Of a stretch of DNA of 38,434 nt, positions 4,943 through 29,504 are shown one piece after another. Source of the stretch: Caldisericaceae bacterium (GTDB lineage Bacteria; Caldisericota; Caldisericia; Caldisericales; Caldisericaceae); the NCBI GenBank assembly GCA_027023025.1, contig JALVXB010000024.1, positions 1 to 38,434 on the forward strand, read 5' to 3'. Each line of letters opens with the position of its first letter. The first letter of the stretch is position 1. A program made the translations under genes and the position numbers. The notes beneath the pieces are model-generated. The model searched no databases. It saw nothing but the letters and a program-made list of their open reading frames with translations, and was not told the DNA's origin.

Positions 4943-6619
4943 GTGGCTAACAACAGTGAAGTTAAAATTATACCGCTCGGAGGAATTGGTGAAATTGGCA
5001 AAAATTCCACAATTATCGAGGTAAACAAAAGTATCCTGCTCGTGGATTTTGGATTTAAGTTTCCTTCGTCCGATATGCCGGGGATTGACTTTATCATCCC
5101 GGATTATTCGTATTTAAAAAAGAAAAAGAAGTATTTGAAGGGGATTGTCCTGACGCACGGCCATCTGGATCACATCGGCGCGCTGCGTTTTTTACTGGAA
5201 GACATTACCCCGCCGTTTATTGCAGGCTCCCCTATTACGCTGGGAATCGTCAAAAACAACCTGGCCGAGCGCATAAAGAAGAAAATTCAGTTCAGGGAAG
5301 TGGAAAACAGAGGGCGTATTTCTGCGCAGCCTTTTGAAATTGAGTTTATTCGAGTTACGCACAGTATCCCCGGGAGTTTCGGTATTGCAATAAAGACACC
5401 TGAGGGCATTATTTTTCACACGGGCGATTACAAAATTGACAAAACGCCTGTTGACGGCAAAAAAATGGATGTGGAGCGCCTCAAACAGCTCAGCAAGGAG
5501 GGGATCGTTGCGCTTCTTTCTGACAGCACCAACGCAGACGAAAGCGGGTTTACGGGTTCAGAATCCCTGATCGGCAAAAATCTTATACCGATATTTAAAG
5601 CGTCGAAAGGGAGGATTATTGCAGCGACATTTTCCACGAACATCCACCGTATCCAGCAGATTATAAATGTGTCGCAGCAGTTTGGACGCAAAGTGATTTT
5701 CGACGGGAGAAGCCTCGTTGAAACGGTAAAAATTGCAAAAAAGCTCGGGTACATAAAAGTGCCTGAAAACATAGAAGTGGAGCTTTCCAACATTTCTACT
5801 CTGCCCAAAAAGAAAGTAACGCTCATTACGACGGGCACGCAGGGCGAGCCGATGTCTGGGCTCGTGCGCATTGCAAACGGTATGCACAACGGAATTGGTA
5901 TAACAAAGGGCGACACGGTGATCGTTTCTGCTGACCCTATCCCGGGTAACGAGCGCGTCGTGTCCGACACGATAAACAAACTGTTCAAACTGGGTGCAGA
6001 TGTATACTACAGAAAGGAAGACGGAATCCATGTGTCCGGGCACTGCTCGCAGGAGGACATCCGCTTTATGCTGCGCATTACGAAGCCGAAGTACTACATT
6101 CCAGTGCACGGTGAATACAGGCACCTCGTTTTTGCAAAGAAAATTGCAAAGAGTGAAGGAATCAGCGAGAAAAATGTGTTTATTCTTGAAAACGGTCTTG
6201 GCGTGCGTATATCAAAAGGCAAAATGAAAAAACTTCCGCGTATTAAGTCGGGCAGCATTATTGTGGAGGGCAACACACAGATTGCATTAAAAACGAACGA
6301 AGAAATCCCGATGTTTGCAGAGCGCAGGGAAATGGGCAACAGAGGGATGCTCTTTGCCGTAATCGTTATAAACAAAAACGGGAAAGTGAAAAAACCCGTG
6401 CACATAGAGACGAGAGGTATAATATTCCCCAAAGGCTCCGAAGGGGAAATCGTTAAAAAACTGAAGAGTAAAATAGTTGAAACTGTAGAAAAATCTGCTA
6501 AAATAGACAGGCAGAGTGACATAGAGAAGCTGGTGGAAAAGGCAGTAAAAAAACTTTTCCGGAAAAATTCTCAGAAGTCGCCTGCGGTGTTTCCTTTACT
6601 GATAAAGGAAAAGAAGTAA
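4943..6619 (+). CDS. rnj: Ribonuclease J (beta-CASP metallo-beta-lactamase RNase)
   Basis: 558 residues, the standard length. The metal motif THGHLDHIGA (H72, H74, D76, H77) lies in the beta-lactamase fold. HTGDYKID, the DSTNAD segment, the beta-CASP region with ATFSTNIHRIQQI and TGTQGEP, and the late motif HVSGH...PVHGEYRH follow, then a C-terminal domain. RNase J combines 5'-to-3' exonuclease and endonuclease activity in mRNA decay and rRNA maturation. Translation starts with GTG at 4943, preceded by AAGGAGAG. It lies between two tRNA genes. A clear terminator is not visible; only a weak 6-bp stem occurs before tRNA-Leu. Confidence 0.95.
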   Translation: MANNSEVKIIPLGGIGEIGKNSTIIEVNKSILLVDFGFKFPSSDMPGIDFIIPDYSYLKKKKKYLKGIVLTHGHLDHIGALRFLLEDITPPFIAGSPITLGIVKNNLAERIKKKIQFREVENRGRISAQPFEIEFIRVTHSIPGSFGIAIKTPEGIIFHTGDYKIDKTPVDGKKMDVERLKQLSKEGIVALLSDSTNADESGFTGSESLIGKNLIPIFKASKGRIIAATFSTNIHRIQQIINVSQQFGRKVIFDGRSLVETVKIAKKLGYIKVPENIEVELSNISTLPKKKVTLITTGTQGEPMSGLVRIANGMHNGIGITKGDTVIVSADPIPGNERVVSDTINKLFKLGADVYYRKEDGIHVSGHCSQEDIRFMLRITKPKYYIPVHGEYRHLVFAKKIAKSEGISEKNVFILENGLGVRISKGKMKKLPRIKSGSIIVEGNTQIALKTNEEIPMFAERREMGNRGMLFAVIVINKNGKVKKPVHIETRGIIFPKGSEGEIVKKLKSKIVETVEKSAKIDRQSDIEKLVEKAVKKLFRKNSQKSPAVFPLLIKEKK

Positions 6620-6697
6620 AATAAGTTTGGACAGCTTTTAGTCCGAGTCTTTGGTCTGCTTTGCGGACTGGGGCTTTTTGTGAAATGTCTTTGCTTT

Positions 6698-6785
6698 GCG
6701 GAAGTGGCGGAATTGGCAGACGCGCTGGGTTCAGGTCCCAGTGGGCGATAAGCCCTTGGGGGTTCAAGTCCCCCCTTCCGCACCA
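6698..6785 (+). tRNA. tRNA-Leu (anticodon CAG)
   Basis: An 88-nt class II tRNA. GCGGAAG pairs with CTTCCGC, the anticodon stem CTGGG/CCCAG encloses TTCAGGT (anticodon CAG), and a long variable arm follows (GTGGGCGATAAGCCCTT). The T arm is GGGGGTTCAAGTCCCCC, with discriminator A and an encoded CCA. The DNA downstream changes to an AT-rich accessory stretch, a common context for island insertion. Confidence 0.96.
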
Positions 6786-7193
6786 AACTTTGGGATTGCA
6801 CTCAAAGATTTTTGCTCAGATGTTGTGTCCAGATATTATGTCTGGAATAACTTCAATGCTTTTCATTCGAATGTATTTTTCATTTAACGGGATGTGACCA
6901 TAATCTATAATTTAAGCATGGTAGCTTATAGTATTCAGTAAAGTAATTTTCCTTATATTTATGCCAAAATTTTGTGGATAGTAGAAGTATTTTTATAATT
7001 TATCTTTAAATCATTTTATTATAATTATTATAATTAAATCGACTCTTGTGTATTATAGTACAACTTTTAGTATGTTCTCTATTTTATTTGTTGATTAGGC
7101 TTTGAAAAAGTTTTAAACTATAATATAAGTGTACTAAATGCTAATAATATGAGATTGGTTAAGCAGACATAAGAAGTATAAAAGGAGGCTGTT
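6786..7193 (+). other. AT-rich intergenic region after tRNA-Leu
   Basis: About 400 bp with many A/T runs and no open frame worth calling. A 5-bp inverted repeat (CCAGA/TCTGG, about 6829-6845) lies downstream of the tRNA but has no T-run. I found no copy of the tRNA 3' end here. The stretch ends with a candidate promoter for the DUF3800 gene. Confidence 0.5.
7102..7129 (+). promoter_or_regulatory. Candidate promoter of the DUF3800 gene
   Basis: TTGAAA (7102-7107) and TATAAG (7124-7129) are separated by 16 bp, with an overlapping TATAAT five bases earlier at a less favourable distance. The leader to the ATG at 7194 would be about 58 nt and carries AAAGGAGG. The DNA is so AT-rich that chance matches are likely. 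Confidence 0.3.
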
Positions 7194-8039
7194 ATGTTAG
7201 ATGTTTTTTTTGCAGATGATTCAAAACAGGATAATCCGTCTCGTGATGGCATGGGACCATTGGTTGCGGTAGGAGCTATTTATGTTCCGGGAGATAAAGT
7301 TAAGTCTTTAGAAGACAATCTTGAAGAAATTTGTAAACAATATGGGTTTCCTTCTGACCCAGTAAAGGGAGAATTCAAATGGTCACCGGGTAGAGAACTG
7401 TGGATGCATGATAATCTTACTGGAGAGGATAGGGAAAATTTCTTTCTGGAAGCAATCAATCAGCTTATAGATTGTGAGTCGAAAGTAACCATTGTCATAG
7501 CTGATAAAAATGCCAATTATGCTAATTCAACAAAGGCGAATAATAGTCTTGAGGATGTTACCTTTATGCTACTAGAAAGAATAGAGACACAGCTTAATTA
7601 TGTAGAGAATACAGGTATAATAGTTACCGATAGACCTTCAGGTGGTCGTTCCGATGAAGACAAATTTCTTCAGAGTTGCCTTGAAACAATCACTTCCGGA
7701 ACAAAATTTGTTAAACCACAACGAATTGCTGTAAATGTGCTTTCTTCTCCTTCTAAGCTGATAAGGTGTCTTCAAATTGCTGATGTTGTTACATCAGCAA
7801 GTCTTGCATTTATATCAGGCGAAGATCGATACTCTCCCAAAATTTTTGCCGCTATAAAACCTCTTTTGAATAGTAAAGATGAGAGAATTGGTGGCATTGG
7901 TATTAAAATTCATCCAGACTATAAATATAGAAATCTATATTATTGGTTATTAAATGACAAATATTATTACAAGAATAATGTTGGTATTCCATTACCAGAA
8001 TCAGGCTGTGCTTATGAAAATAGCCCTCTTAATCCTTAG
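7194..8039 (+). CDS. DUF3800 domain protein
   Basis: 281 residues. The N-terminal VFFADDSKQ with its acidic pair, the 'PLVAVGAIYV' strand, the GEFKWSP segment, VIVTDRP and the late LQIADVVTSASLAF helix match the layout of DUF3800, a family with an RNase H-like fold and conserved acidic residues. Members are common in mobile elements and variable islands; biochemical function is not established. AAAGGAGG precedes the ATG. Codon use is visibly more AT-rich than in the flanking housekeeping genes. It converges on the membrane protein gene downstream and lies in an accessory stretch beside tRNA-Leu, consistent with horizontal acquisition. Confidence 0.75.
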   Translation: MLDVFFADDSKQDNPSRDGMGPLVAVGAIYVPGDKVKSLEDNLEEICKQYGFPSDPVKGEFKWSPGRELWMHDNLTGEDRENFFLEAINQLIDCESKVTIVIADKNANYANSTKANNSLEDVTFMLLERIETQLNYVENTGIIVTDRPSGGRSDEDKFLQSCLETITSGTKFVKPQRIAVNVLSSPSKLIRCLQIADVVTSASLAFISGEDRYSPKIFAAIKPLLNSKDERIGGIGIKIHPDYKYRNLYYWLLNDKYYYKNNVGIPLPESGCAYENSPLNP

Positions 8040-8118
8040 AATAGAAATTTTACCAATTTGTTTATTCTTACAAACTTCGTAGATCTTTTACTAACTGTGT
8101 TTTATTTTATCAGCAATA

Positions 8119-9822
8119 CTACTGGTTGTGTTTGAACTTATCGAGAGTTAAAAGGATTTTCTTCTCTATATCATTGTTACGAATATTTTTGTCTTTTATA
8201 AGGTTCGAAAATTCTTTGAAATACTCAGATATTATAATGTTTGCTCTTGCTTCTTCTAAAGTATTTATTTTTTCCGTTATTGCTCTGATGCTATCAAATG
8301 CATCGATAGCAATATTTAGTATATTAAGGAAGTGCTTATTATCTAAGTGTTCTAAGCTTTTTTTAGCTATACCAAACATATACGGCAATCCTATCTCACA
8401 ATAATTTAAATCGATTGCTTTTCTTGCAGCAATATTAATCAAGGTTTCAGAGAAATACCTGGTAGGCGTTTTGTACATATAGGTATCTTTTGTAAAAAAG
8501 TGAAAAATAATTCCGAATGCATAAAAAATGCTTTCGGAAACCATCTCATATATACCTTTTTTAACGCACCTTATTGTTAGTAACTTTATAAGCAAGTATG
8601 AATCATTAATAATATTTTGTGTAACATAATTATCAAGATTATCGTTTAGAACAACAGGAACAGCTAATTTTTGAATGCTCAAAAATCCTCTATGGATAAT
8701 ATCAAGTCTCTCGAGCTCTATGGCTTTTTGCATTACGGCATTTAGAATTGAAATATAGGTAACTTCGATGTAATTTCTTTGATGATACTTAATTGTTTCA
8801 AGTTTATGTACATCGTTTTCTTCTTTAAAGAAGAAAGGATAATTCTCTAAATCTTCCATTAAATTTTCTTCCAAGACTTCAAAACCTTTTTTACAAACAG
8901 AAATAAAATCTTTTTCAACCCCTCGCAATAAAATATTTCTAAGAAGCTCGTCAAGGCTGGACAGTAATTTCTCTTTTTGGCTACTCCCTCCTATAAGTTC
9001 TCTTGTTTCCCTTATACAATTTAGAATCTCTCTTAAAGCAAATTCATTTCTATGTTTGAATGATTCCATTGAAAAATATTCTAACAAATTAAAATAAGGT
9101 TTTAATTTACTACTTTTGATTGCTCCATTTCTATCCATAAAGGCATCGAAATATTTTTTGCTAAATTCTGATAGAATTAACTTTATTCCGTCCTGATCAT
9201 CATCTTTAAGCATGCCCACAAACACTTCTTTTAAAGTAAGTATTTTATGTTGAACTTCTAAGTTTGAGCTAAATGCGGAAATCTTCATGTCTCCTAGTAT
9301 CTTAATTAGCGCATTAATGCTTTTTTTAATTTTTCTTTTTGGTTCACTGGAAGTCAAAATTTCCTGTACTCCAAACGGTAGAATAAGCAAGCAATATATA
9401 AAAAGAAACAAAGAAATTCTAAACGACCATTGGTTTATCACAGTAAGATTTTGGCTTATGCTGACTGCTGCAATTATTGTTACAATAATTGCTAATATGA
9501 AAAACCATAAAAGGAACCGAAAAGATAGATTTTGAAAGAATTTTTCAAAAGCAGAGCTTCCATAAAGTTTGCGTTGCAAACCAAATGAAACTAACGAGAT
9601 TGCAATGATAATCCCGATTATGGAAGCAAGGATAGAAGCTATCGCTGTAAGAATTGAAATTGTTGTACCTGCATTTGTTAAATTAATAAGGTCCAATTGT
9701 TTAAGTAGATAAAGGATTAATATGGATAGAATTGGTGTTATTATAGTAGAGGCAAGAAATTGTTCTTCTTTTAAAAAAGATTCAAGATTATTCTTCAGGT
9801 ATAGGTGTCTTTTCAATTTCAC
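8119..9822 (-). CDS. Unknown large membrane protein with a helical C-terminal domain
   Basis: 567 residues; I do not recognise the family. The first 165 residues hold four hydrophobic helices (about 24-42, 52-80, 103-125 and 135-155), and the remaining 400 residues are soluble, Leu/Ile/Lys-rich and predicted mostly alpha-helical. The 'SLVSFGLQRKLYG' segment after helix 2 vaguely resembles DUF2254 membrane proteins, but the match is weak. Translation probably starts at GTG 9822, whose GTGA overlaps the stop codon of the upstream DUF2344 gene, implying coupled translation. Base composition is much more AT-rich than that of DUF2344. It is best described as an accessory gene of unknown role. Confidence 0.7.
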   Translation of the reverse strand: MKLKRHLYLKNNLESFLKEEQFLASTIITPILSILILYLLKQLDLINLTNAGTTISILTAIASILASIIGIIIAISLVSFGLQRKLYGSSAFEKFFQNLSFRFLLWFFILAIIVTIIAAVSISQNLTVINQWSFRISLFLFIYCLLILPFGVQEILTSSEPKRKIKKSINALIKILGDMKISAFSSNLEVQHKILTLKEVFVGMLKDDDQDGIKLILSEFSKKYFDAFMDRNGAIKSSKLKPYFNLLEYFSMESFKHRNEFALREILNCIRETRELIGGSSQKEKLLSSLDELLRNILLRGVEKDFISVCKKGFEVLEENLMEDLENYPFFFKEENDVHKLETIKYHQRNYIEVTYISILNAVMQKAIELERLDIIHRGFLSIQKLAVPVVLNDNLDNYVTQNIINDSYLLIKLLTIRCVKKGIYEMVSESIFYAFGIIFHFFTKDTYMYKTPTRYFSETLINIAARKAIDLNYCEIGLPYMFGIAKKSLEHLDNKHFLNILNIAIDAFDSIRAITEKINTLEEARANIIISEYFKEFSNLIKDKNIRNNDIEKKILLTLDKFKHNQ

Positions 9823-10508
9823 ACTTCCCAGGGGGAGAACATCCGCTCGCCCTTTAGGAGTAGGGTTTTTTTGCGGACGACATAGTCAAACTGTACTCCT
9901 GCGCCGTGCTCTTTTATAATCTTTTCCAGTTCGTCGATTTTTATGCTGCCGTGTTTCGTAAATAAGATTGACGCAAGTATTACTACTTCGGCGCTTTTTT
10001 CAAATTTTAGCACTTTGAGTTCTTTGATAAACTCGCGGACATCCTTTTCTTTTATTCTACCTTTGCTTTTACGCTTTACTAAGATGTTTTCTTTTTTTAG
10101 AATGCTGCTTAGAACATCTTCGAGGTGCTTTTCGCTTTCTCCTTCTTCCGCCGTTCCGTAAACAAAGTGCACGAGGATTGCGTCCATCGATGTAATGGAA
10201 GGTGCGTTGAACGGAACTTCGCGTACTCTTTTGATGCGAATTATGTTTTTGAACGCTTTGTTCAGTGCTTCGAGTACCTGGGCAGTATCCACCTGCCCTT
10301 CTATGTAAAAGTCGAAGTATTCGTCTTCGCCTATCATTCCTACGCTCAAAGGAAAGCCCATTTCTACCTTCACGCGCTCGTTAAATCCTTCCGTAAAACG
10401 CAGGGGCAAACCGCTCCGCCTTAAACCTCGCGCAATTGCACGCGTTAAGTCTACATGCCCTATGTAGCACACCTCTTCAGGTCGCTCAAAATTTACTCTT
10501 ATTCTCAT
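9819..10508 (-). CDS. DUF2344 (radical-SAM-associated) protein
   Basis: 229 residues. The start RVNFERPEEVCYIGHVDLTR and the following LRRSGLPLRFTEGFNERVKVEMGFPLSVGMIGEDEYFDF are typical of DUF2344, a domain normally fused to or encoded beside a B12-binding radical SAM protein. No radical SAM gene is in this window, so the partner would have to be elsewhere. No clear ribosome site precedes the ATG; a TATTAT box lies seven bases before it, so the transcript may be leaderless, but the -35 is weak. The stop overlaps the start of the downstream membrane protein gene by 4 bp. Composition is like the housekeeping genes. Confidence 0.8.
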   Translation of the reverse strand: MRIRVNFERPEEVCYIGHVDLTRAIARGLRRSGLPLRFTEGFNERVKVEMGFPLSVGMIGEDEYFDFYIEGQVDTAQVLEALNKAFKNIIRIKRVREVPFNAPSITSMDAILVHFVYGTAEEGESEKHLEDVLSSILKKENILVKRKSKGRIKEKDVREFIKELKVLKFEKSAEVVILASILFTKHGSIKIDELEKIIKEHGAGVQFDYVVRKKTLLLKGERMFSPWEV

Positions 10509-10624
10509 AACTTTTATAATAGCAAATTTATCGTCAAAACAAAACTTTATAAATTATAAAAAAGTAGTATTATATTTTTGTGTAAAATTGAGTTTTGGTA
10601 TTTATAAGAAAGGAGAGGTGGAAT

Positions 10625-12208
10625 ATGGACGTAAAAGAGTTTCTGAAAAAGACGAACGAAGAACTTAAAGAAATGGAAAAAGCCGTTGCAACCGCCTACT
10701 GGAATCTTGCAACGACGGGCAAGAAAGAATTTGGTGAAGAGGTGGAGAAGTCTGAAATTAAGTTAAGGTTGTACCTGGCCGATAAGGAGCGCTTTGAATT
10801 TGTCAAAAAAGCAAAAGATGAAGAAGGCCTTGACGAAATTGAAAAAAGAGAACTCATCTTGCTTTACAACAACATGCTTCCCAACCAACTGCCGAAAGAG
10901 AGAATTGAGGCGGTCGTAAAAAAAGAAGTGGAAATGGAATCCATTTTTGCAAACTTCAGGGCAAAGATAGACGGCAAAGAGGTTTCCAATAACGAGATAG
11001 ATGAAATCCTGAAAAGCAGTAAGGATGTGGAGCTTCGCAAAAAGGCGTGGATTGCTGGCAAAGAAATAGGAAAAGAGATTGCGCCGCGCCTTATTGAAGT
11101 AATAAAACTTAGAAATGAAAATGCAAAAATTTTAGGATACGACAACTATTACGACATGATGATGGACTTGCAGGAGCTCAGCACTGAACAGATTCACAAT
11201 ATGTTCCACGACTTCAAAGAGCAAACGGACGACCTGTTTGTCGAGATAAAAAACGAGATAGACGAAGTACTTGCAAAGAAATTTTCTATTAAAAAGAGCG
11301 AACTGATGCCGTGGCACTATGCAGACCTCTGGTTCCAGGAAGTTCCCGAGATTGACGACTTTGACTTTGACGGATTGCTTAAAGACAAGGACCTCGTAAA
11401 ACTAACGGTTGATACTTACGATTCAATAGGGCTGGACATAAGGGACATTATCGATAGGTCTGACTTATTTGAAAGAAAAGGCAAAAACCAGCATGCGTTT
11501 ACTATTACTATAGACAAAGAGAAAAAGGATGTAAGAGTGCTTGCAAATGTGCGCCCGAATGTACGCTGGGCAGAAACGATGCTTCACGAGTTTGGACACG
11601 CTTCTTACGACAAGTACATCGATAGAAGCCTCCCTATAATTTTGCAGGAACCCGCACACATCTTTACCACTGAAGCGGTTGCAATGTTCTTTGGGAGAAG
11701 GGCGCGCGATGCGGAGTGGTACAAAAAGATCGTTGGAGTGGACGAAAAAACTTACGAAGAAATTTTGCCGCGCCTCAAGAGAATTTTGCGCACTCAACTT
11801 GCGATAACTGCGCGTTGGGTAATGGCATTTGTTTTCTTTGAGAAGGAGCTTTACCGCTCGCCTGACGGAGACCTCAACAACCTCTGGTACGATACTGTAC
11901 ACGAGCTCCAGTACATAAATGTGCCCAATGAAAGGAGAGAGTATCCCGACTGGGCAGCGAAAATTCACTTTGGGACTGCACCCGTATATTACCACAACTA
12001 CCTGCTTGGTGAGATGATGGCATCTCAAATGAGGGATTACATACACGAAAACATTTCAGAAGACATTTTAAATAAAAATGTAGGCACATTCTTTATCGAT
12101 AAAATTTTCAAACCGGGTGCGCTGTACAGATGGGACAACCTTTTGGAAAAAGCAACTGGCGAAACGCTGAACCCCGTACACATGGCGAATCAGTTAAAGG
12201 AAAAGTAA
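10625..12208 (+). CDS. M3/M2-like gluzincin oligopeptidase
   Basis: 527 residues from the ATG at 10625, which has GAAAGGAGAGGTG just upstream; a GTG ten codons earlier lacks such a site. The zinc motif is TMLHEFGHASYD (HExxH), and the third ligand is probably Glu in FTTEAVAMFFGR about 30 residues later. The long helical N-terminal half, the motif spacing and the C-terminal 'YHNYLLGEMMASQ' segment fit the M3 oligopeptidase F / M2 ACE-like clan of cytosolic peptidases that cut short peptides. There is no signal peptide, so it is probably cytosolic peptide turnover. A weak stem (CAGAAG/CTTCTG, 12229-12245) follows the stop. Confidence 0.85.
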   Translation: MDVKEFLKKTNEELKEMEKAVATAYWNLATTGKKEFGEEVEKSEIKLRLYLADKERFEFVKKAKDEEGLDEIEKRELILLYNNMLPNQLPKERIEAVVKKEVEMESIFANFRAKIDGKEVSNNEIDEILKSSKDVELRKKAWIAGKEIGKEIAPRLIEVIKLRNENAKILGYDNYYDMMMDLQELSTEQIHNMFHDFKEQTDDLFVEIKNEIDEVLAKKFSIKKSELMPWHYADLWFQEVPEIDDFDFDGLLKDKDLVKLTVDTYDSIGLDIRDIIDRSDLFERKGKNQHAFTITIDKEKKDVRVLANVRPNVRWAETMLHEFGHASYDKYIDRSLPIILQEPAHIFTTEAVAMFFGRRARDAEWYKKIVGVDEKTYEEILPRLKRILRTQLAITARWVMAFVFFEKELYRSPDGDLNNLWYDTVHELQYINVPNERREYPDWAAKIHFGTAPVYYHNYLLGEMMASQMRDYIHENISEDILNKNVGTFFIDKIFKPGALYRWDNLLEKATGETLNPVHMANQLKEK

Positions 12209-21270: not shown

Positions 21271-21298
21271 TTGACAGGAGAAGCAAAATGTATACAAT
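21271..21298 (+). promoter_or_regulatory. Promoter of the 97-residue gene, placed for a leaderless transcript
   Basis: A perfect TTGACA (21271-21276), a 16-bp spacer and TACAAT (21293-21298). The ATG of the next gene is at 21308, so a start six or seven bases after the -10 box would leave a leader of only a few nucleotides with no room for a ribosome site. Confidence 0.6.
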
Positions 21299-21307
21299 CT
21301 CTTTCAT

Positions 21308-21601
21308 ATGAAAGAAGAAGAATTAGAAACCTGGCTTAAAATTCAAGAAATTGAAGACGGCAAAAAGGGTGTGCTGAAGTATAGTTTCAGTAACGACATT
21401 ACCGTGTGGTACGAGTACGAAACGAATACGCTCTACATAAGGGGCGTGGACATAAGTGAAAAAGAGTTTTACATTTCTGAGGATCTCGTGCTCTTCTTGG
21501 GCACTCTGGATGCGCAGATCAAAAAGCATCCCACTCTCGTCGTGCTTAAAGAAGTGTTCAGTAAAAACTTTTTAGTTAAAATTGGCGTACTGTATCAGTA
21601 A
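21308..21601 (+). CDS. Small unknown protein, 97 residues
   Basis: I do not recognise this protein. It is acidic to neutral and rich in Glu, Lys, Val and Leu, with alternating hydrophobic residues that suggest several beta strands (VLKYSF, ITVWYEY, TLYIRGV, EFYIS), then two helices. It has no signal peptide or Cys motif and appears cytosolic. There is no Shine-Dalgarno sequence before the ATG; instead a near-consensus promoter ends nine bases upstream, which supports the gene being real and its mRNA being leaderless. It ends tail-to-tail with the C25 protease gene, overlapping it by 7 bp. Confidence 0.6.
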   Translation: MKEEELETWLKIQEIEDGKKGVLKYSFSNDITVWYEYETNTLYIRGVDISEKEFYISEDLVLFLGTLDAQIKKHPTLVVLKEVFSKNFLVKIGVLYQ

Positions 21602-24966: not shown

Positions 24967-25700
24967 AACATTCTTTTCAGGTGTTTCCGCATCGTAGAAT
25001 ACTTTCTTGGATACTTTTTAGGAGTCTTACTTACTTTTTTGATGACGAGCAGGTAGCGCGTTTGAGCGTCGTCACCCAGTTTGTAGGGAACGGTTTTTTC
25101 TACCTTCCCGCCTAACTCTTCTATAAACTGCTCAAATCTCGAAATCTGGGCGATGTCCTTTTCCCCTTTCCACAGCACGAGGAATCCACCAATTTTTACG
25201 AACGGCAATCCGACTTCTGCGTTGATTGGTATTTTCCCGACTCCGCGCATTACGGCAATGTCAAACTTTTCGCGAAACTTTTCGTCTTTACCTATGTCTT
25301 CGCCGCGTGCAACGAGTAAGTTCACCTCGCTTGAAAGTTCGAGACGCCGCAAAAGCATCATAACGAACGCTGCCTTTTTCTCTTTTGAGTCGAGAAGCGT
25401 GAGACGAATGGAAGGAAATGCAATTTTTAGAGGAATGCCTGGAAATCCTGCTCCTGTGCCTATGTCGATAAGTTCTGCGTCGTCTAATTTTACGGCGAGG
25501 TTTATTGCAAGCGAATCTGCGAAGTGCTTTAACGCGGATTCTTTGTCGCCTTTTATTGCAGTAAGGTTAAAGCGGGTGTTGTTCCAGTTGTCCAGCATAG
25601 ACTTGTGGACGAGCATACGGCGCAGAGCCCGCTCATCGAGCTCCACGCCGAATTTTTTTGCCTCTTTCTTTAGTATTTCAGTAAATTCTACTTCGCTAAT
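24963..25700 (-). CDS. rsmG: 16S rRNA (guanine-527-N7)-methyltransferase RsmG
   Basis: The SAM-binding motif [20 protein letters not shown], the DSKEKKAAF segment, the preceding NTRFNLTAI and the later AVMRGVG identify RsmG, which makes m7G527 in 16S rRNA. A GTG at 25646 would give 227 residues, but it has no good ribosome site and removes the first helix of the family. The frame is open upstream; an ATT at 25700 lies seven bases after GGAGAGGTGA and would give 245 residues beginning (M)[20 protein letters not shown], which looks like a normal RsmG N-terminus. I therefore propose an AUU start, overlapping clpB by 13 bp. The enzyme call is firm; the start is less certain. Confidence 0.85.
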
Positions 25701-28300
25701 TTGAACTTCACCTCTCCTTTTTCCATATACGCTTCTATTACTGCGCCTTTTTCTATGTTGTTTCTCAGAATAAACTCTGCAAGCGGATTTTCAAGGTACT
25801 TCTGAATTGTTCTTCTCAGCGGCCTTGCCCCGTAGATTGGGTCAAATCCCTTGTTTGCAAGGAATACTTTTACATCTTCGTTTACTTTCAGCACGATTTC
25901 CCGCTCTTTTAGTTTCCTCATCGTGTAGCCGAGCAAAATGTCCACGATCTTCTTGAGCTGTTCCATGCCTAACGGGTTGAATACGATAATTTCGTCAATC
26001 CTGTTGAGGAATTCTGGCCTGAACACATGGCGCATTTCTTCCTGCACTCGTTCCACTACGCGGTCGTACTGTGTGCTGTATTCCCGGGTCCCGGGGATCG
26101 CGTTTATCTCCGTGATGTACCTGCTACCGATGTTGGAAGTCATTATGATAATCGTATTTCTAAAGTCTACCGTCCTGCCTTTTGAGTCCGTGAGCCTTCC
26201 GTCGTCGAGCACCTGCAGAAGTATGTTGAACACATCCGGGTGTGCTTTTTCAATTTCGTCGAGCAAAACGACGGAATACGGATGCCTGCGCACTGCTTCC
26301 GTGAGCTGCCCTCCCTGTTCGTAACCTACATATCCAGGAGGTGCGCCTATAAGACGGGAAACTGAGAACTTCTCCATGTATTCCGACATGTCGATCCTGA
26401 TTAAGGCCTTTTCCGTGTCAAACAGGAATTCTGCAAGTGCTTTTGCAAGCTCAGTTTTACCAACGCCTGTAGGTCCGAGGAATATAAACGAGCCAAGCGG
26501 CCTGTTCGGGTCTGAGAGTCCTGCACGCGCTCTGCGGATTGCGTTTGCAACTGCTTTGATTGCCTGGTCCTGTCCTACGACGCGTTTCCTCAGTTCGTCT
26601 TCGAGGTGAAGCAGTTTGTCCCTTTCTGATTCTAACATTTTTGAAACGGGGATGCCCGTCCACTTGGAAACGACCTCTGCAACTTCTTCTTCGCCTACTT
26701 CTTCTTTAAGGAGTGGATGGTCTTTCTGGATTTCTGCAAGTCTTTTATTTGCTTCGTCTAGTTTCTTCTGAAGAGTTGGAATTTCGCCGTAAAGAATGCG
26801 TGCTGCTTCGTCCAGGTCTCCGCGCCTTTCCGCAAGTTTTGCTTTCGTTTTCAGGTCGTCTATTTGTTTTTTAATTTGCCTGATTTCGTTAATTGCTTCT
26901 TTTTCTTTACGCCACTTTGCCGTAAGGGCGGCGTCTTTTTCCTTCAGGGATGCAAGTTCTTTTTCTAATTGTTTTAGCCTCTCTGCCGTTTGAGGGTCGC
27001 CTTTTTCTCGCTCGAGTGCCTTCTTTTCCATTTCTAGCATTCTGATTTTCCGCTTCAGTTCGTCAAGTTCTACGGGCATGCTGTCGATTTGCATCCTCAA
27101 AAGGGACGCTGCTTCGTCTATCAGGTCTATTGCTTTATCTGGAAGGAATCTGTCCGTAATGTAGCGTGCGGAAAGTTTTGCCGCTGCGACGAGTGCTGCG
27201 TCTTTTATTTTTACTCCGTGGTGCACTTCGTACTTCTCTTTCAGTCCGCGCAAAATGGCGATCGTTTCTTCTATGGAAGGCTCCTTTACGAATACGGGCT
27301 GGAACCTTCTTTGCAGTGCTGCATCCTTTTCTATGTACTTCCTATATTCGTCAATTGTCGTTGCGCCGATCGTGCGAAGTTCTCCTCGTGCAAGGGCAGG
27401 CTTCAGCATGTTGGATGCGTCAAGCGAGCCTTCAGTTGCGCCTGCACCAACGACCGTGTGGATTTCGTCTATGAACAGAATAATTTTGCCCTCTGCTTTT
27501 TTAATTTCTTCGATAACGGCTTTTAGCCTGTCTTCAAACTCTCCTCTGAACTTTGCGCCTGCAACGAGTGCACCGAGGTCCAGCTGGAAAATCGTTTTGT
27601 CCTTCAGTGTTTCGGGCACATCGCCTGCAACAATTCTCTGCGCGAGCCCTTCCACGATTGCCGTTTTACCCACGCCTGCTTCACCTATGAGGATTGGATT
27701 GTTTTTCGTTCTGCGTGTAAGAATTTGCATCGTGCGCCTGATTTCTTCGTCTCGGCCGATGACGGGGTCGAGTTTGCCTTTCCTTGCAAGGTCTGTTAAG
27801 TCTCTGCCGTATTTTTCGAGTACTTTGTACTTGTTTTCTGGCGTTTTGTCAGTCACCTTTCTACCACCTCTTATTTCTGTAATTGCTTTTAATACATCCT
27901 GTTTCCTTATGCCGAAAGCGTTGAATAAGCTGGCAAGTTCTGTGTCGTCCAGCGCTGCAAGGAACAGGTGTTCTGTACTTATAAATTCGTCCTGCATTCT
28001 CGCTGCTTCCGCTTCTGCCCGTTTGAAAAGGGCATCGAGCCTGCTCGTTATGTAAAATTCCTTTGACAAACTGCCTTCTACTTTTGGAAAACGAGAAATG
28101 CGTTCGTAAAGTGCATTTAAGAATGCGTTTTTGTCTACTTTTAGGCTGTTAAGGATAAGGGGAACGAGTCCATCTTGCTGCTGAGTAAGTGCAACGAGCA
28201 AGTGTTCAACATCAACTGCCTGATTACCTTCGTTTACTGCGATGTCTTTTGCATTAACGAGTGCTTCCTGCACTTTTTCAGTAAACTTCTCCTGATTCAT
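25688..28300 (-). CDS. clpB: ATP-dependent disaggregase ClpB
   Basis: 870 residues from the ATG at 28300, which has AAAGGAGGTG upstream; the open frame extends 18 codons further but without support. It has the double Clp N-domain repeat, AAA1 with GEAGVGKTA and [13 protein letters not shown], a long coiled-coil middle domain (about 400-520, rich in Glu/Lys/Leu), AAA2 with [32 protein letters not shown] and [16 protein letters not shown], and the C-terminal [16 protein letters not shown]. ClpB extracts proteins from aggregates, usually with DnaK, which is not in this window. No CIRCE element is visible. It leads an unusual operon with rsmG, a membrane protein, GDPD and a secreted protease. Confidence 0.97.
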
Positions 28301-28442: not shown

Positions 28443-28470
28443 TTGTAAAAGGTAAGTATTTCTGTATAAT
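28443..28470 (+). promoter_or_regulatory. Promoter of the L,D-transpeptidase gene, placed for a leaderless transcript
   Basis: TTGTAA (28443-28448), a 16-bp spacer and a perfect TATAAT (28465-28470). The gene's ATG is at 28477, seven bases after the -10 box, which is where transcription should begin. There is no Shine-Dalgarno sequence before the ATG. Confidence 0.6.
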
Positions 28471-28476
28471 TTTGTT

Positions 28477-29019
28477 ATGAAAAAATTTTTTATTTTGCTG
28501 CTTCTTTTGGTGATGCTTTTTGCAGTAGCGTTTAGCAGCGCAAAGGCAGATGGGGATTATTCAATTGTGGTGAATAAATCGTATCACTTACTGTTCCTTA
28601 AAAATAACGGCAAAATTGTCCGCGTAATACCTGTAACGATAGGGAAAGGCGGGGACAGCGAAACGCCTGTGGGCAATTTCTCTATCGTGAGCATAGTGCA
28701 CAATCCGAAGTGGTACTTTAACGGCAAGGTTTATCCTCCGTATAACGAGGATCCCGAGAACGGGCTTGGCGTGTGCTGGATGGGTATATCTCTTCCTTCT
28801 TACGGCATACACGGGACGAACGAACCGTTTTCTCCTGGCAGAAACCGCTCACACGGGTGTGTGCGTATGAACAATAACGATGTAAAGTACCTTTCTTCTG
28901 TTTCTTATATCGGCGAGCCCGTAAAAATAGAAAGTGGAGAAATGGATAGTATTTCAGAACACATGAAGGTGATCAATATGCTTTACGACATAGAAAACTT
29001 TTTAGGGGGTGAAAAATGA
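28477..29019 (+). CDS. L,D-transpeptidase (YkuD family)
   Basis: 180 residues. A signal peptide (about 1-24) is followed by a YkuD domain: YSIVVNKSYHLLFL, GKGGDSETPVGNFSI, YGIHGTNEP (H112) and the catalytic motif SHGCVRMNN (H126, C128, R130). The family forms 3-3 cross-links in peptidoglycan or attaches proteins to it, outside the cytoplasmic membrane. Its presence supports a peptidoglycan-containing envelope. It is transcribed divergently from clpB and overlaps the next gene by 4 bp. Confidence 0.9.
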   Translation: MKKFFILLLLLVMLFAVAFSSAKADGDYSIVVNKSYHLLFLKNNGKIVRVIPVTIGKGGDSETPVGNFSIVSIVHNPKWYFNGKVYPPYNEDPENGLGVCWMGISLPSYGIHGTNEPFSPGRNRSHGCVRMNNNDVKYLSSVSYIGEPVKIESGEMDSISEHMKVINMLYDIENFLGGEK

Positions 29020-29504
29020 GCAAAGGGAAAATAATGGGAATTGCGTTTTTGGTCGTTGCACTTGGGTTTGCTGCGTGGCTTCTTTCCACGACGGGCGCAA
29101 GAAGCGCTGGGGGGACTGTTCTGGGTATTATTATCCTCGTAATTCTTCCTGCAATTATAGGTGTGTACCTGTTTATCAGCGGCGGCAAAGAGGAAAAGAC
29201 GATGAAGAAGTTAGAGCTTGAGCAGAAAATTCTTAACGCCGTGGAAACGCGTGGAACTGTAAAAGTAAACCAGCTAATCCTCGAACTCGGCCTGAGCAGG
29301 GACACATTCAGGGATTATCTTGAAGACCTCGTAGGAAAGGGACTGTTTACCGGGTATGTGGACTGGAAAGGCGGGAAACTCGTATCTGCAGATATGGCAA
29401 AGTTGGATATGCATAAGTGTCCGAACTGCGGTGCGCCTCTTGAACTTGCAGGAAAAGGTGTGGTTAGGTGTCCTTACTGCGGAACGGAAATTTTCCTGAA
29501 GTAG
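29016..29504 (+). CDS. Membrane-anchored winged-helix and zinc-ribbon protein
   Basis: 162 residues; family not recognised. Two N-terminal membrane helices (about 5-23 and 33-55) are followed by a Lys/Glu stretch, a winged-helix-like region (about 66-125: ILNAVETRGTVKVNQLILEL, then LSRDTFRDYLEDLVGKGL) and a C-terminal zinc ribbon with CPNCGAPL (C135, C138) and CPYCGTEIF (C152, C155). This layout suggests a membrane-tethered regulator or adaptor, but no target is evident. ATGA overlap with the L,D-transpeptidase gene and GGGGGTG upstream indicate coupled translation, hinting at a cell-wall-related role. Confidence 0.75.
   Translation: MSKGKIMGIAFLVVALGFAAWLLSTTGARSAGGTVLGIIILVILPAIIGVYLFISGGKEEKTMKKLELEQKILNAVETRGTVKVNQLILELGLSRDTFRDYLEDLVGKGLFTGYVDWKGGKLVSADMAKLDMHKCPNCGAPLELAGKGVVRCPYCGTEIFLK

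Follow-up and report, generated by a model that had tools for sequence, protein, structure and literature searches.

A putative leaderless mRNA for an L,D-transpeptidase gene in Caldisericaceae, with signs of a minority leaderless gene class

The L,D-transpeptidase gene of a Caldisericaceae genome appears to be transcribed as a leaderless mRNA from a sigma-70-type promoter and to belong to a minority leaderless class of the family; from the sequence evidence presented below, we place the probability of this reading at about 0.87. The window, by which we mean the whole stretch of DNA analysed, is an entire contig of 38,434 bp from a 1.66 Mb genome that is 99.89% complete. In the proposed mechanism the promoter would set the RNA polymerase to start on the A of the start codon, or one or two bases off. 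The transpeptidase mRNA would then possess neither a leader nor a Shine-Dalgarno (SD) sequence, and the ribosome would recognise the 5'-terminal AUG. The gene would join a minority of leaderless genes in the family, mostly the first genes of transcription units.

Promoter and start codon of the L,D-transpeptidase gene

The features of the region are the following.

28443..28448, + strand: -35-like hexamer TTGTAA, identical to TTGACA at four of six bases (direct reading of the sequence and promoter scan)
28465..28470, + strand: -10 box TATAAT, its first base at -12 from the ATG (direct reading and promoter scan)
28471..28476, + strand: the six bases TTTGTT from the -10 box to the ATG (direct reading and relatives)
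28477..29019, + strand: L,D-transpeptidase gene (YkuD domain) with a signal-peptide-like N-terminus (ORF and Pfam)
29016..29504, + strand: gene for a zinc-ribbon-like protein, overlapping the 3' end of the transpeptidase gene (zinc-ribbon matches below the Pfam cut-offs)
25688..28300, - strand: clpB, a divergent SD-led gene used for contrast, with AAGGAGGT six bases before its ATG

The two promoter hexamers are separated by 16 bp, and the ATG (28477-28479) follows the second after six bases, an arrangement that a preliminary description of this DNA had given exactly to the base. The promoter scores 10 of 12 in the promoter scan, which detected no other + strand site in the AT-rich intergenic region between clpB and the transpeptidase gene. 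The -10 box thus lies about 12 nt before an ATG that is itself the furthest upstream start of the open frame. No SD of at least 4 bases occurs 4-20 nt before this ATG, in agreement with the earlier claim that the gene has no ribosome site. The nearest SD-like string, AAAAGGT (28447-28453), overlaps the -35 hexamer and the spacer, and 23 nt separate its end from the ATG. The SD is absent despite the presence in this organism of a putative anti-SD string, GGATCACCTCCTTT, presumably the 16S end, which occurs once in the genome.

The gene product matches PF03734 (YkuD; E-value = 2.1e-24) at 87.2 bits, above the curated cut-off of 23.4. Its signal peptide was assigned by eye; the orthologues exhibit a hydrophobic N-terminus of the MK type. 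The ATG of the zinc-ribbon-like gene is preceded by GGGGGTGA, and this gene is probably co-transcribed with the transpeptidase gene. A TTTTGTAAAA repeat found by both divergent promoters was considered as an operator and then dropped: it has 20 sites on both strands of 812 kb, ranking in the lower half among 16 TTTTNNAAAA strings in the same sequence.

Conservation of the box position among orthologues

The relatives compared are genomes assigned to its genus, its family or its class. A match to the transpeptidase was obtained in 13 of the 18 family genomes, and none in the other five. TATAAT lies exactly at -12 in 11 of the 13 orthologues, across six of the seven genera. The bases between the box and the ATG vary (TTTGTT, TACACT, TTGATT, TTAACT, CATCTT, TGCATT and others), and their number is six in all 11. 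The -35 hexamer and its 16-bp spacing in genome G001 are identical to those of the window; in G013 and G011 the best -35 hexamer has four mismatches, with a TG before the box in G011 instead. These poor -35 hexamers, and the imperfect one of the window, count against the leaderless reading. In G007, TATAAT is found at -24 with GGGA within the leader, and a search for a box near the start in G004 returned none.

Outside the family 17 loci were collected, two of which (fragments at contig ends in G027) were dropped, leaving 15 for examination. Among the seven loci of group f2, five exhibit TATAAT at -16 from the likely start and GGAG between the two, one has the box at -15, and one has TATACT at -12. 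No box near the start was found in any of the four loci of group f3 or the four of group f4. These exceptions, together with G007 and G004, indicate that the leaderless arrangement is not obligatory. The f2 loci L040-L044 carry TATAATGGGAGTCACTATG or a close variant, with an ATG that overlaps the -10 box in frame with the likely start, and GGAG at the spot where the transcript would be expected to begin.

clpB was found next to the transpeptidase gene only in G000, G001 and G005; in nine of the other 10 genomes it is on another contig or 320 kb off, and no clpB match was found in the tenth (G009). The promoter is therefore independent of its clpB neighbour, which we rejected as an explanation for its presence.

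Frequency of the arrangement in the genome

Plain pattern counts provide weak evidence. TATAATN{3,12}ATG occurs 6 times in the window for 4.57 expected. In the whole genome TATAAT followed by six bases and ATG occurs 44 times, versus 24 for the reversed pattern; with a spacing of N5-6 the counts are 77 versus 35, and N15-16 is likewise raised (55 versus 35). As the excess is partly common to the 15-16 base spacing, a gene-aware test was used instead, in the form of the scan of SD-less genes for TATAAT boxes that had been proposed along with the original description.

The scan covered 811,901 bp, about half of the genome, in which 644 genes were called, 601 of them with a usable ATG start. The gene caller was our own simple one (codon score, neighbour limit, first plausible ATG) rather than a published annotation. 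An SD of at least 5 bases was present at some plausible start in 415 of the 644 genes. Among the 601, the 207 with no SD of at least 5 bases at any plausible start form the non-SD class and the other 394 are SD genes; the profile at -12 leaves out genes lacking any plausible ATG. The exact TATAAT box occupies -12 in 12 of the 207 non-SD genes versus 2 of the 394 SD genes. Allowing one mismatch, with A2 and T6 kept ("near match"), the box was found in 24 of the 207 versus 2 of the 394. In 200 dinucleotide-preserving shuffles of the 50 upstream bases of the non-SD genes, the corresponding means at -12 are 0.19 (maximum 2) for the exact box and 2.37 (maximum 8) for the near match. Over positions -15 to -11, 52 near-match boxes were observed versus 11.25 (maximum 21) in the shuffles, an excess of about 40 that corresponds to 6-7% of the 601 ATG genes. 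At in-frame internal ATGs of a first 438-kb sample, the -12 position held an exact box in 1 of 1950 cases and a one-mismatch box in 10 of 1950. The same pipeline applied to four 50-kb stretches of E. coli K-12 gave no near match at -12 among 90 non-SD genes.

The signal is thus over-represented, within the half of the genome scanned, as a sharp peak in the very register of the transpeptidase gene. The suggestion that leaderless initiation is a regular mode of this organism holds with a qualification: the mode is well supported by these sequence counts as a minority one, with about 40 of 601 genes over chance. This excess predicts about 1.9 genes per 38 kb, which fits the two such genes previously noticed in the 38-kb window. 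In G007, exact boxes at -15 to -11 number 8 versus 0.45 in shuffles (n=92). Outside the family, G019 (f3) exhibits 6 versus 0.48 (n=47), spread over -16 to -12, and in G018 (f2, 54% GC) 3 of 51 non-SD genes carry a near match at -12, versus 0 or 1 at the other positions between -45 and -6.

Signs of transcription initiation at the start codon

A pyrimidine is preferred immediately before a transcription start. Of the 32 non-SD genes whose box lies at -12 or -11, 27 have a pyrimidine at position -1, versus 172 of the 394 SD genes (P = 9e-6). A pyrimidine occurs there in 63 of the 156 non-SD genes without a box, and boxes at -15, -14, -13 or -10 exhibit no such bias (10 of 19); these latter boxes may reflect short leaders or chance. 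The bias at -1 in the -12/-11 class agrees with a +1 on the A of the ATG. Together with the geometry of the box, it leads us to infer that transcription of the transpeptidase gene would start at the A of its ATG, and ribosome entry would then presumably occur at the 5'-terminal AUG.

Leaderless genes are known to prefer ATG starts. Among candidate starts of non-SD genes, a near-match box at -12 was found for 26 of 375 ATG, 3 of 222 TTG and 0 of 185 GTG codons, the 185 GTG candidates having six near-match boxes at -13 or -11. This amounts to a preference for ATG. Of 47 non-SD genes whose upstream neighbour is divergent, 28 have a near-match box at -15 to -11. With a same-strand neighbour such boxes are present in 8 of 31 genes for gaps of more than 100 nt, 12 of 44 for 25-100 nt and 3 of 85 for 25 nt or less. 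At control positions (-35 to -31) the numbers of boxes in the same four neighbour classes are 2, 4, 1 and 4. A -35 hexamer within two mismatches accompanies 24 of the 34 candidates at -12 or -11, versus 167 of all 601 ATG genes in the same register, candidates included. The leaderless reading of the transpeptidase promoter is supported by these comparisons of sequence.

Alternative explanations

The distance from the -10 box to +1 is known to vary by a few bases. The promoter might be real and its +1 lie 1-5 bases before the ATG, giving the mRNA a tiny SD-less 5' UTR. The presence of some boxes at -15 to -13, and of a box at -15 or -16 in six of the seven f2 orthologues, speaks for such a short leader. 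However, the boxes peak at -12, a position from which the usual distance leads to a +1 on the A of the ATG, and most genes of this class have a pyrimidine at -1. We regard a short leader as a possibility to be kept in mind but an unlikely one, noting that it shades into the leaderless reading and that the two are not fully exclusive.

An explanation by chance would require the TATAAT to be an accident of AT-rich DNA, with a more distant upstream promoter providing the mRNA with an ordinary leader. The base composition of the intergenic region and the lack of enrichment of the plain pattern in the window are compatible with this, and genes that lack an SD could be translated from AU-rich leaders through S1-type initiation. 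Yet the promoter scan detected no second promoter-like site on the + strand of the intergenic region, the -12 register is kept in the 11 of 13 orthologues though their spacer bases differ, and about 0.2 exact boxes are expected where 12 are found among the 207 non-SD genes. Chance is accordingly very improbable. The least probable of the readings considered places the true start downstream, at GTG 28510 or ATG 28513, with a leader of about 35 bases. These in-frame starts do exist, but their use would cut the signal-peptide-like N-terminus, which is conserved in the family from 28477, and no SD of at least 4 bases precedes ATG 28513. A leaderless transpeptidase mRNA remains the reading that we prefer.

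Other leaderless candidates in the family

Several other genes exhibit a similar arrangement. In the family, coaD has TATAAT or TATACT in all 15 loci retained, at -12 (12 loci), -11 (2) or -13 (1), with TTGCAA 16 or 17 bp before the box in each. Of 18 ispE loci, 17 have the box: 13 at -12, including one that precedes a GTG, three at -11 and one at -14. All 15 hrcA loci show TATAAT between -15 and -10 of a start, four of them exactly at -12; this start is the best-placed one in 13 loci, and in the remaining two the box fits only a second ATG shortly after it. None of the 16 loci of clpB, the SD-led control, carries a box between -17 and -10 of the start chosen, and an SD of at least 4 bases is present in 15 of them; alternative upstream starts with a box at -10 are found in G003 (ATG) and G007 (TTG). 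These counts follow the removal of 3 of 18 coaD rows (weak or second hits), 2 of 17 for hrcA (fragments without the N-terminus), 1 of 12 for lexA, and 12 of 28 for clpB (11 weak hits and one at a contig edge). The evidence did not support a leaderless coaD throughout the class: of 31 genomes outside the family with a match, 15 loci were examined, and among the 14 that gave a start a box was found in one, as an AT-rich TAAAAT.

The lexA gene is a more variable case. GTTCGTANAAT is found in 11 of the 11 loci examined (L074:18330-18395 in G000 C27; orthologues L161-L170). In several of them an AACA-like left half precedes it, resembling an SOS operator placed on the -10 box. Four of the 11 loci have the box at -12 or -11 from the ATG. 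In the other seven the chosen start is further down, with an SD before it in six; in the remaining one (G008) the SD belongs to a GTG located six bases further along. Three of the seven are ambiguous through upstream starts with a box (ATG at -10 in G003, GTG at -14 in G015, GTG at -12 in G004). Subject to this ambiguity, lexA seems to have acquired or lost short leaders while its promoter stayed in place, and the transpeptidase locus of G007 looks like the same change. As lexA and transpeptidase orthologues with and without a leader occur in close relatives, the gain and loss of leaders can be traced.

The candidate list from the 812 kb contains 56 genes, 26 with the box at -12, 8 at -11 and 22 at -13 to -15. 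As judged by their N-termini, we take them to include dnaX, coaD, hrcA, ispE, dinB, lexA, rapZ, rsmH and lspA. Since about 11 boxes are expected by chance at -15 to -11, the list holds false members, mostly at -15 to -13. On the minus strand of L019 (G000 C29), a gene starting near 12103, presumably dinB, has TTGACA-16-TATACT at -12, and the spacer contains CGAACAAATGTAC, which resembles the lexA operator. It is possible that this is a leaderless SOS gene.

As a tentative extension, which we hold to be rather doubtful at present, Caldisericaceae might keep a fixed leaderless set (L,D-transpeptidase, coaD, ispE, hrcA and others) in an SD-dominated genome for distinct translational control, with single genes such as lexA switching between leaderless and SD-led forms at one promoter through the gain or loss of a leader of about ten bases.

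Relation to known leaderless genes

Caldisericota is a little-studied phylum, first cultured as a thermophile. No earlier report of leaderless genes in it was found in the open-licence literature, although earlier notice elsewhere is possible. A leaderless transpeptidase gene would belong to a kind of gene already known in other bacteria. Zheng et al. 2011 described leaderless genes of bacteria in which a TA-like signal precedes the start by about 12 bp (PMC3160421). The present genes resemble them, so far as the available text describes them, in the TATAAT-type signal at -12, in a promoter that would leave no leader, and in being part of the genes only; the list of groups in that text does not name Caldiserica, and the text has no word beginning with Caldiseric- (PMC3160421). 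In Deinococcus-Thermus, according to the accessible part of the account, a -10 box likewise lies directly before the ORF of leaderless mRNAs (PMC12340547). The present case differs in concerning a minority in an SD-dominated genome, and in that the 24 of 34 candidates cited above also have a -35 hexamer. Mycobacterial leaderless transcripts, in the portion of the study at hand, are similar as a standing part of the genome; they were studied by RNA-seq and ribosome profiling, whereas our evidence is sequence and conservation (PMC4633059). One paper on the leaderless topic names Caldiserica, in an anti-SD table within the text available, and no mention of Caldiseric- names was found in the accessible portion of Nakagawa et al. 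2017.

With these observations Caldisericota would join the bacteria in which leaderless genes form a definite class, on the evidence of gene-by-gene conservation. They also bear on annotation, as start calling that expects an SD may misplace leaderless starts.

Other sites in the window

Three further starts in the window deserve mention. Within 10583-10630, ATG 10625 is in frame with TTG 10595 and has a clear SD, AAGGAGAGGTGG (10610-10621). The mechanical ORF start at TTG 10595 is probably wrong, and the TAAAAT before it would serve a leadered mRNA. Within 21271-21310, TTGACA-16-TACAAT is followed after nine bases by ATG 21308, with no SD; this gene is possibly leaderless or very short-leadered, and may be the first of the two genes previously noticed. 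On the minus strand, TATTAT at -13 precedes the ATG (10508) of ORF 9819-10508, again with no SD, which makes it a weaker leaderless candidate. Finally, the G+C content is low in the stretch 6001-10000 (0.372 and 0.310 in 2-kb steps), near ORFs 7194-8039 and 8119-9822, and this stretch was possibly acquired.
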